A stretch of 16,059 nt of DNA from a bacterium. GTDB lineage: Bacteria; UBP15; UBA6099; JAJRTR01. The DNA lies in NCBI GenBank assembly GCA_024278215.1, contig JAJRTR010000131.1, positions 1 through 16,059 of the forward strand. Reading direction: 5' to 3'. The notes under the pieces were generated by a model. That model was not told where the DNA came from. It did no database searches and worked only from the letters and a program-made list of their open reading frames with translations. Positions 5,765-10,184 of the stretch are shown piece by piece; positions within the stretch are counted from its first letter, which is position 1; every line of letters begins with the position of its first letter. Position numbers and translations under genes: made by a program.

Positions 5765-5943
5765 GAGCCAATTGCAAAATTATGTTCGTAGCGAGGTCGA
5801 GCGAAATTGTTCAGAGCAAGGCGGAGGTGTAAAATCCTCGCAGGCGTACTTTGTAGAGTACGTCGAGGACGATTTTATGCCGACAACGCCGCTATGGACA
5901 ATAGCAGCCGACCGCACCAGAATCAGAGTTTTGCAATTGGCTC
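5765..5943. mobile_element. 179-bp MITE-like element with 15-bp terminal inverted repeats
   Basis: GAGCCAATTGCAAAA (5765-5779) is repeated perfectly inverted at 5929-5943. The five bases TTATT occur directly on both sides (5760-5764 and 5944-5948), as expected for a target-site duplication. The interior carries no gene. It folds on itself imperfectly: AAAATCCTCG near 5832 faces CGAGGACGATTTT near 5866, around a GTAC/GTAC centre. This looks like a non-autonomous transposable element mobilised by a transposase encoded elsewhere. It sits between the start of the hydrolase gene and the divergent region, so it may have displaced or donated a promoter. Confidence 0.75.
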
Positions 5944-6792: not shown

Positions 6793-8589
6793 ATGGATAC
6801 AACATTTTTCAGTGAGAACAATATCGAATTTGATGAATTGCAGCACTCGGAGATAAAAGGTGCGGGTGTCACGGGTGCGGCCCAGGTGCTCAACTGCCCG
6901 ATGTCCTATATTGTTACAACAAATCTTTTCGAGGCCGCCGGAGAAATTATTTGCGCAGTCACAGGCGGCGGTGCGCGGCCCGCGCCGGAAGCGGTCGCGA
7001 AGGCAGCCGGCACGGATTCCGCGGCATATATCGAACCCGCGCGCGCCGAGGAACTCACAGGGCTCGGCAAGTTCGATATCAGTCCCCTGACATTGTGGAA
7101 GAAGCATAAACTTATCTGGGACAGGCAACTGCTGGATTATCCATACATAATATTCGCGCGGGGCGGCGAGACCACTTCTCTCAGGGTGGACACACGCGGT
7201 TTCATCCGGGCGGGTGTGATGTCGGCGGATATATCGGGAGCGGCGACAGGAGAAAAAACATCAGCTTACGGCGTTCTGCTGCGTCGCGGATTCATTGACA
7301 GGATCACGGACGAGGCGCTTTGTGAAAAAGTGATGTCCGACACTGAGACAAGCGGATATATCGGGTTCGACCCGACGGCGGACAGTCTGCACGTGGGCAG
7401 CCTTGTGCCGATCATGGCGCTTGCGCACTTGCAGAAGGCCGGGTTGCGCCCGATAGCGCTTGTGGGCGGAGGCACAGCGCTTGTGGGCGATCCCAGCGGC
7501 AAGACGGAACTGCGCAAGATGCTGACCCGTGCACAGGTGGACAGCAACGCGAAAGGTATCGAAAACCAGCTTTCCAATTACATCGATTTCTCCGGCGGAA
7601 ATGCGAAACTTGTGAACAATGCGGACTGGCTTGCGGACTTGACATACATTGATTTCCTGCGTGAAGTAGGTGTTCATTTCTCGGTCAACCGGATGATAAA
7701 AGCCGAGTGTTTCGCCAGCAGGATGGAGAAAGGGCTTTCTTTCATCGAGTTCAACTATATGCTTATGCAGGCTTATGATTTTGTACATCTCGCGGAAGAA
7801 CTCAACTGTCTTGTGCAGATGGGCGGCAGCGACCAGTGGGGCAATATTTGCGCCGGCAAAGACCTCGGACATCGTGTGCATGGCCGCACGATATTCGGTC
7901 GTGAAGCAAAACGCTGCGACCATACGGTGGGCGTGACTTTCCCCCTGTTGAAAAACGCGGCGGGCGGCAAGTTCGGCAAAACCGAAGGCGGCAATGTATG
8001 GCTCGACAAAAACCGCACTTCGATCTTCGACTTTTTCCAGTTCTGGCGAAACGCCGACGACACCGATGTGCGCCGGTTCCTCTCGCTGTTCACTTTCATA
8101 CCGATGGAAGATGTCCGTGAACTTTCCTCGCACGATCCCGGACCGGAACTGAACGAGGCGAAAGAGATACTTGCGTTTGCGGCGACATCGCTTGCGCATG
8201 GAGTCGACCAGGCGTTCGCGGCGGCGGCGACCGCGAAGGAGCTCTTCGGCGGCTACGGAGCGGGATTCATCGAAAAAATCGTGGCGCTCGGGCTGGCAGA
8301 TAAAAACAAGGCGGATGAATTCAAAAACACCGAGAAAGCGAAAATTCCTGAAATAGAGTTGAGGGCGAACGCGCTCGCCGGAGACGGCTATCCCGTGTCG
8401 AAAGCACTGAACGAATTGGGACTGGTTTCGTCTAACGGCGAAGCTAAAAGGATGATCAGGCAGAACGCCGTCACAGTCGATGGAGAAAAGGTTTCCTCTC
8501 CCGGCACCATGCTGCCTGCCGCACCGGCCGGTGCGGAAATCGGAATCCGCGTCGGCAAGAAAAAGCACGGCATTGTGAAAGTAATATAG
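6793..8589 (+). CDS. tyrS: Tyrosyl-tRNA synthetase with fused N-terminal YbaK-like editing domain
   Basis: This 598-residue protein has two parts. Residues 1-150 resemble YbaK/ProX aminoacyl-tRNA deacylases over their whole length: FFSENNIEFDELQHSE at the start, ELTGLGKFDISPL (87-99) for the family's TGY-GGISPL, and the ARGGETTSLRVD strand (122-133). The family's catalytic Lys (Lys46 of E. coli YbaK) aligns with Thr42 in IVTTNLF. Residues 158-598 are a complete class I TyrRS of the E. coli type: GFDPTADSLHVGSL (191-204) with the HIGH-type motif as HVGS, GGSDQWGNI (344-352), the KMSKS loop as KFGKTEGG (393-400), and a C-terminal S4 RNA-binding domain (about 530-598). It charges tRNA-Tyr; the extra domain could hydrolyse a mischarged tRNA or only bind tRNA. 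The frame is continuous. It stops at TAG, with an in-frame TGA five codons later. Confidence 0.93.
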   Translation: MDTTFFSENNIEFDELQHSEIKGAGVTGAAQVLNCPMSYIVTTNLFEAAGEIICAVTGGGARPAPEAVAKAAGTDSAAYIEPARAEELTGLGKFDISPLTLWKKHKLIWDRQLLDYPYIIFARGGETTSLRVDTRGFIRAGVMSADISGAATGEKTSAYGVLLRRGFIDRITDEALCEKVMSDTETSGYIGFDPTADSLHVGSLVPIMALAHLQKAGLRPIALVGGGTALVGDPSGKTELRKMLTRAQVDSNAKGIENQLSNYIDFSGGNAKLVNNADWLADLTYIDFLREVGVHFSVNRMIKAECFASRMEKGLSFIEFNYMLMQAYDFVHLAEELNCLVQMGGSDQWGNICAGKDLGHRVHGRTIFGREAKRCDHTVGVTFPLLKNAAGGKFGKTEGGNVWLDKNRTSIFDFFQFWRNADDTDVRRFLSLFTFIPMEDVRELSSHDPGPELNEAKEILAFAATSLAHGVDQAFAAAATAKELFGGYGAGFIEKIVALGLADKNKADEFKNTEKAKIPEIELRANALAGDGYPVSKALNELGLVSSNGEAKRMIRQNAVTVDGEKVSSPGTMLPAAPAGAEIGIRVGKKKHGIVKVI

Positions 8590-9181: not shown

Positions 9182-9211
9182 TTGACGACAGCAGAAGCTG
9201 TTGATTATCTT
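9182..9211 (+). promoter_or_regulatory. Possible promoter of the FtsZ-like gene
   Basis: TTGACG (9182-9187) and TATCTT (9206-9211) are 18 bases apart. Transcription would start about 20 bases before the ATG at 9240. The -10 box matches the consensus at only four of six positions. Confidence 0.3.
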
Positions 9212-9239
9212 TCATAACCAGGAGCGGGAAAAAACAGCA

Positions 9240-10184
9240 ATGGGTTATAATGGAATAATTAGTACGAAGTATCGCATAGTCGGTGTCGGTGGCTGCGGAT
9301 GTAATTGCCTGAACTGGATACAGGAACGCGAGCAGATAGATTCCGGCTATGTAGTGATCGACAGCGATACCGTGGCGCTTGATAAATCACCCGTAAGGCG
9401 AAAACTGCGAATAGATTATACAGCACACGGGAAATCCGTCGCGGATAAAATGGCAGCCGTCAGCCTGGCGGCAACCGAGATGAAAGATAGGATAAGATCA
9501 TCGGTCGCCGGTAATGATTTTGTTTTTCTACTCGCGGGCATGGGCGGCGTGACCGGTACATCCGCAGCACCCGCCGCAGCGCTTGCCGCTTCTGAAGCCG
9601 GCGCTGTTTCTGTCGCTCTTGTTACAATGCCGTTTACATTCGAAGGTAAAAAAACGCGTGCGTTCGCGGAACTCGGACTGGACAATCTCGGACAATATGC
9701 CGACACGGTATTCTGCGTGGAAAACGACGCGCTTCTCAGATATCTGGGCTCCGACAGGAATATGAACATGGTTGCCGAAGCGGGCTATGTTTTTTTCTAT
9801 GAAGCCATTCTTACGCTTATGGATACAGTAAATACGCGTGGAGAACTCAATGTATCACTGATAGATGTAAAGAACATTCTGTCAGGGCACAGGCTCGGAA
9901 TCATCGGCATGGGAGAAAGCACAGGCGGCAATTTTCCCACAAGCAAGGCCATGACGGAGGCGCTCGACGGCTATTTTCTGAAAGATAATCTTGAACAGGC
10001 TGCATCAATTCTTGTCGTCATCAGGGGTGCGGATGGCCCTCTCTACGAAGTAAATACCGCAATGGGACTTGTAAACGACAGGATCGGCGATGGTACGCTG
10101 GTCTTCAACCATGTCATTAGCGATTCTTCTTTCATGAATTCAGTCAGGGTTGTTATTTTCGCAGTATATCAATGCCTTGCATGA
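9240..10184 (+). CDS. Divergent FtsZ-like (tubulin-family) GTPase
   Basis: This 314-residue protein shows the FtsZ order of motifs: YRIVGVGGCGCNCLN (11-25) as the first nucleotide-binding loop, GMGGVTGTSAAP (100-111) in the place of the tubulin signature GGGTGTG, TMPFTFEGKKTRAFAE (129-144), ENDALLRYL (161-169), LNVSLIDVKNIL (203-214) as the T7 loop, and IGMGESTGG. Three features differ from a dividing FtsZ: the signature reads GGVTGTS, the first catalytic Asp of the T7 loop (NxDxxD) is Ser206 while Asp209 remains, and the protein ends after the core, without the linker and C-terminal peptide that bind FtsA/ZipA-type partners. It may polymerise without normal GTP hydrolysis, or regulate another FtsZ. 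The ATG at 9240 fits the FtsZ N-terminus; a TTG at 9201 is an alternative. It ends in TGA. Confidence 0.85.
   Translation: MGYNGIISTKYRIVGVGGCGCNCLNWIQEREQIDSGYVVIDSDTVALDKSPVRRKLRIDYTAHGKSVADKMAAVSLAATEMKDRIRSSVAGNDFVFLLAGMGGVTGTSAAPAAALAASEAGAVSVALVTMPFTFEGKKTRAFAELGLDNLGQYADTVFCVENDALLRYLGSDRNMNMVAEAGYVFFYEAILTLMDTVNTRGELNVSLIDVKNILSGHRLGIIGMGESTGGNFPTSKAMTEALDGYFLKDNLEQAASILVVIRGADGPLYEVNTAMGLVNDRIGDGTLVFNHVISDSSFMNSVRVVIFAVYQCLA

Follow-up and report, generated by a model that had tools for sequence, protein, structure and literature searches.

One reading frame joins a YbaK-like domain to a tyrosyl-tRNA synthetase

Does a tyrosyl-tRNA synthetase (TyrRS) that carries a domain of a tRNA-editing family, one usually associated with proline, proofread its product, or is that domain something else? 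TyrRS is the standard example of a synthetase lacking an editing domain, and we know of no need for it to proofread. In the 16,059-nucleotide stretch of DNA analyzed here (the window), a single frame runs without interruption from an ATG at position 6793 to a stop codon ending at 8589 on the forward strand and encodes 598 amino acids. Within this one protein, Pfam placed PF04073 (tRNA_edit) at residues 28 to 138, PF00579 (tRNA-synt_1b) at residues 185 to 485, and an S4 domain at residues 537 to 574. An earlier, sequence-only reading had described a YbaK-like domain and a complete TyrRS in one frame, and the open reading frame, Pfam, and NCBIfam agree with it; the pair that it had proposed to look for, PF04073 plus tRNA-synt_1b in one protein, was found, with PF04073 above its curated cutoff. 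The architecture is a real gene fusion of known parts in a new domain combination, found in a single genome. The features discussed below are as follows.

6793..8589, + strand: fused gene, INS/YbaK-fold domain plus tyrosyl-tRNA synthetase (frame, Pfam, NCBIfam; no other TyrRS found in the genome)
6793..7236, + strand: N-terminal tRNA_edit (PF04073)/YbaK-fold domain, residues 1 to 148, with a degenerate active site (Pfam, AlphaFold2 model, fold search)
6916..6918, + strand: codon of Thr42, aligned with the essential Lys of the family, i.e., Lys46 of H. influenzae YbaK and Lys45 of C. crescentus ProXp-ala (alignment)
7072..7086, + strand: F94-D-I-S-P98, counterpart of the GXXXP loop, with Gly replaced by Phe94 (Gly in 37 of 37 other aligned homologues)
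7219..7221, + strand: in-frame ATG (Met143), sole internal codon from which a complete free TyrRS could start, with no upstream Shine-Dalgarno sequence (start-codon scan)
7237..7257, + strand: linker GAATGEK, residues 149 to 155, from the last YbaK strand to the TyrRS start (end of the 1wdv match, starts of free TyrRSs)
7248..7253, + strand: AGGAGA, possible fossil Shine-Dalgarno sequence of a once-separate tyrS, just upstream of codon 156
7258..8586, + strand: tyrosyl-tRNA synthetase, residues 156 to 598, with HVGS, KFGKT, tyrosine-site residues, and a C-terminal S4 domain (Pfam, NCBIfam, alignment)

The synthetase part matched the tyrS equivalog TIGR00234 with 360.6 bits (cutoff, 113.8) and PF00579 with an E value of 3e-75. 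Both class I signatures (HVGS and KFGKT) and the tyrosine-site residues Y189, D233, Y322, Q326, D329, and Q348 are present; the Ser at the last position of the HIGH motif was found in 4 of 110 TyrRS sequences. The nearest TyrRSs are clostridial (43 to 48% identity) and all unfused. The enzyme is complete, as had been noted from the sequence, while the label "E. coli-type" attached to it is loose given these clostridial neighbors. In a tree, the TyrRS of the window sits on a long branch with no well-supported partner; within its order, genome G002 encodes an unfused TyrRS of broadly the same type with 46% identity. The best-supported reading is that the TyrRS part is predicted to charge tRNA-Tyr as usual.

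The N-terminal domain is predicted to adopt the YbaK fold

The fused protein matched PF04073 with 37.9 bits (E value, 2e-9; curated cutoff, 25.5), and the isolated N-terminal domain did so with 41.3 bits. The domain fell far short of the YbaK/EbsC Cys-tRNA(Pro) deacylase equivalog TIGR00011 (24 to 28.5 bits versus a cutoff of 153.25), and a PDB sequence search with the domain alone gave only a marginal match, to 1wdv, that ended at the equivalent of residue 148. AlphaFold2 modeled residues 1 to 155 with a mean pLDDT of 84.6 and a pTM of 0.81 from an alignment whose two added rows, free-standing YbaKs of a clostridial and a prophage contig, may favor the YbaK fold; the Pfam match is independent of those rows. 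Submitted as a single sequence, the full 598-residue protein reached a pLDDT of 38.6. In a fold search with the domain model, all 37 PDB matches at E ≤ 0.001 were YbaK, ProX, ProRS INS, or YbaK-like (SadB, 3mem) domains, and VIA-align gave Z scores of 15.8 against the archaeal YbaK homologue 1wdv and 15.3 to 15.7 against H. influenzae and E. coli YbaK over 146 to 148 residues. Profile and model thus point to a YbaK fold for residues 1 to 155; the sequence-only reading had assigned it to residues 1 to 150, and the different fold that would have spoken against it was not obtained.

In composition, the domain is acidic, with a pI of 4.87 and 13 basic versus 19 acidic residues. Of the free-standing homologues compared, two have a pI of 8.7 and one of 6.1. 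Degenerate DNA patterns recovered three usable YbaK loci. A related-locus search for further YbaK rows among viral contigs returned none.

Both catalytic features of the family are missing from the fused domain

The active site was compared in an alignment of the fused domain with 37 other PF04073 domain rows from diverse genomes. Where the fused domain has Thr42, these rows show 33 Lys, 3 Asn, and 1 gap. One five-row MAFFT alignment placed Val41 instead of Thr42 opposite the family Lys; since the domain has no Lys between K22 and K70, the absence of this residue does not depend on the choice of alignment. Likewise, the GXXXP loop reads FDISP with Phe94 in the place of Gly. The replacements of Lys by Thr42 and of GGISP by FDISP, first seen by eye, were both confirmed against the 37 homologues. 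Other family positions are still present in the alignment, namely, T43, T89-G90, P98, and D112.

The Lys is essential in every INS-superfamily member tested and is important for binding A76 (PMC10164551), and all characterized members use both Lys and GXXXP (PMC11286415). On sequence grounds, we infer that the fused domain probably does not hydrolyze aminoacyl-tRNA by the family mechanism.

The Lys position, supposedly strict, also varies elsewhere: the free-standing YbaK homologues at loci L117, L118, L120, and L195 have Asn there (C-N-T or A-N-C) and keep the Gly of GXXXP.

The fusion is the only TyrRS found in its genome and was seen in no other genome searched

A PF00579 profile search of the genome recovered this gene and trpS only; to the extent that a 95% complete assembly can show, the cell has no TyrRS besides the fusion. 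ProRS, encoded in the same genome (G000:C191), has an intact INS domain with both catalytic features (VVKTLIY and GFAGP); their loss is therefore specific to the fused domain. An intact D-aminoacyl-tRNA deacylase (DTD) is also encoded. No T-box or other RNA family was found upstream of the fused gene.

In the six other genomes of the small phylum that were searched, the domain did not occur outside ProRS. The fusion was absent from the 80 nearest TyrRS loci, and none of the 110 TyrRS loci compared carries any N-terminal domain. Further searches, which like the preceding ones used the N-terminal domain as a single sequence and could miss strongly diverged fusions, found no fusion in 386 broad relatives plus ~265 genomes of four other phyla (about 650 in all) or in plasmids and phages. 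Matches in those ~650 genomes were weak (19 to 27 bits), none lay in a TyrRS-sized frame, and the weak matches inspected over their whole length are free-standing proteins of the YbaK type. A long open frame around the TyrRS of G002 (L007) was considered as a second fusion and rejected, its upstream frame not being YbaK.

Some other features of the contig and of the compared genomes were recorded. At positions 5765 to 5943, the window contains a highly amplified, MITE-like palindromic element of 179 bp with perfect 15-bp terminal inverted repeats, flanked on both sides by TTATT (a probable target duplication); it has at least 40 near-full copies in the genome at 94 to 97% identity, 40 of 468 first-look candidates having been scored. 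A divergent FtsZ-like protein is encoded at positions 9201 to 10184 of the window (180 bits to TIGR00065; cutoff, 295). At locus L040 (12361 to 13164), two YbaK gene copies lie in tandem, the second truncated at its start and identical in the shared part, either as a duplication or as an assembly repeat.

Comparison with known synthetases and YbaK-fold proteins

Members of the INS superfamily are described as single-domain proteins, with the exception of ProRS (PMC11295145). Bacterial-type ProRS, such as the one in this genome, is likewise a synthetase with an INS-superfamily domain in cis; there, however, a class II enzyme bears the domain as an insertion that retains Lys and GXXXP and acts in editing of Ala-tRNA-Pro, whereas in the fused TyrRS the domain precedes a class I enzyme and has lost both. 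The ProXp-ala-ProRS proteins of Plasmodium and trypanosomatids also carry a YbaK/ProXp domain at the N terminus of a synthetase, but the partner is ProRS instead of TyrRS (PMC11295145, PMC11286415, PMC3532385). By sequence and by fold, residues 1 to 148 best match the free-standing YbaK/EbsC (TIGR00011) and ProXp-x proteins, which, unlike the fused domain, are basic to neutral and possess Lys and GXXXP. SadB, with a YbaK-like and an HDOD domain, resembles the fused TyrRS in having a YbaK fold within a multidomain protein; no deacylase role has been demonstrated for it, and its partner is a signaling domain instead of a synthetase. Bacterial TyrRS (TIGR00234) corresponds in full to residues 156 to 598. 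A full-text search of the literature found no TyrRS-INS fusion, and the statement that known TyrRSs have no described editing domain held in the literature searched. The combination of TyrRS and INS domain, seen in one metagenome-like assembly only, thus appears to be undescribed so far.

The domain is probably a non-catalytic appendage

With a probability of roughly 0.6, we read the protein as an ordinary TyrRS with a catalytically degenerate, non-catalytic INS-fold appendage, either repurposed or left over, and not as a tyrosine proofreader. A free-standing YbaK-like gene of the INS superfamily and a downstream tyrS would have come into one reading frame, probably by loss of the stop codon between the neighboring genes, and the only TyrRS of the cell would thereby have gained an N-terminal pseudo-editing domain. 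Its C-terminal part would charge tRNA-Tyr normally. The N-terminal domain would have kept its fold but neither the Lys that guides the A76 end of aminoacyl-tRNA to its pocket nor the Gly of GXXXP, and would most likely persist for docking, for dimer or ligand contact, or because it is merely tolerated. There are precedents for a YbaK fold outside catalysis: a free-standing YbaK of L. major without the Lys was judged probably nonfunctional (PMC3532385), and a YbaK-like domain occurs in the c-di-GMP-binding regulator SadB (PMC6543031), a domain that our fold search also recovered. Several points weigh against this reading. With a single genome, conservation of and selection on the domain are not measurable, and one would expect a functionless domain to decay, whereas this one has an intact fold. 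The free-standing homologues with Asn for Lys keep the rest of the site, so loss of the Lys alone need not mean inactivity. In principle, tethering to the synthetase could also offset weaker binding, with the A76 2'-OH probably doing the chemistry (PMC10164551).

Alternatively, the domain may be an arm that binds or positions tRNA and helps TyrRS hold tRNA-Tyr without hydrolysis. Domains appended to synthetases often bind tRNA, which makes such a role conceivable, and the related folds bind the tRNA acceptor end (PMC10164551). However, the domain lacks the A76-contacting Lys, TyrRS already has its own S4 domain, and a simple tRNA-binding role is weakened by the acidity of the domain, which sets it apart from its free-standing homologues. 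We regard this role as unlikely. The fallback offered by the sequence-only reading, a repurposed domain, fits best; the acidity of the domain weakens only the tRNA-binding variant of it.

We consider it distinctly unlikely that the domain works in cis as an editing or tRNA-checking module with an altered but active site (Thr42 and Phe94), directed at a tyrosine analogue, at D-Tyr or Phe, or at some other misacylated tRNA. Such a module would be in keeping with the retained fold and family positions, with the direct attachment to a synthetase, a trait shared with ProRS, and with the substrate-assisted catalysis of the family, in which the A76 2'-OH is thought to perform the deacylation chemistry (PMC10164551). 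Yet both defining catalytic features are absent, the domain is acidic, DTD is already present for D-Tyr-tRNA, and the literature searched in full text reports no TyrRS editing; a proofreading role is unlikely for these reasons, and the tyrosine proofreading that had been suggested was not borne out. That an INS-fold checking domain without Lys and the GXXXP Gly would clear a tyrosine analogue or misacylated tRNA-Tyr in cis by new chemistry is quite improbable.

The junction argues against an artefact

Seven residues separate the end of the YbaK domain from the N terminus of TyrRS, and free TyrRSs begin at about residue 156 to 157 of the fused protein. Between position 7219 and the conserved TyrRS N terminus, the two other frames contain no ATG, GTG, or TTG, and an in-frame join is therefore hard to make by an indel, as the shifted frames would leave TyrRS without a usual start. 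After a stop at codons 149 to 155, the next in-frame start would be Met181, beyond the conserved first helix of TyrRS. The AGGAGA just upstream of codon 156 is suggestive only as a fossil tyrS start signal, given that the site was spotted after the fact and that a Shine-Dalgarno core occurred at this position in 2.7% of codon shuffles. The same fusion, which the sequence-only reading had proposed to look for in related genomes, was absent from those searched.

The assembly is not free of such errors: in the same genome, a frameshift breaks trpS (G000:C142; L123, L124) within a T run that reads TTTTC instead of the expected TTTTTC, probably a homopolymer assembly error or else a real lesion in an essential gene. 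That the YbaK-like gene and tyrS are separate in the cell and were fused by assembly or sequencing is nevertheless very improbable: the single metagenome-like assembly, its homopolymer frameshift (at least one), and the possible fossil Shine-Dalgarno sequence would fit, whereas the lack of alternative starts, the helix cut off by a Met181 start, the codon-position G+C, which shows no break across the join, and a domain already degenerate, as an old event would predict, all argue against it.

Implications

A natural TyrRS-INS fusion indicates that an unrelated synthetase can acquire a domain of the editing type. An active N-terminal domain would be the first proofreading module known on a TyrRS and, at the same time, a deacylase that lacks the family Lys. 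If it is non-catalytic, as we favor, the protein would offer a clear example of an essential enzyme that carries along a pseudo-editing domain.
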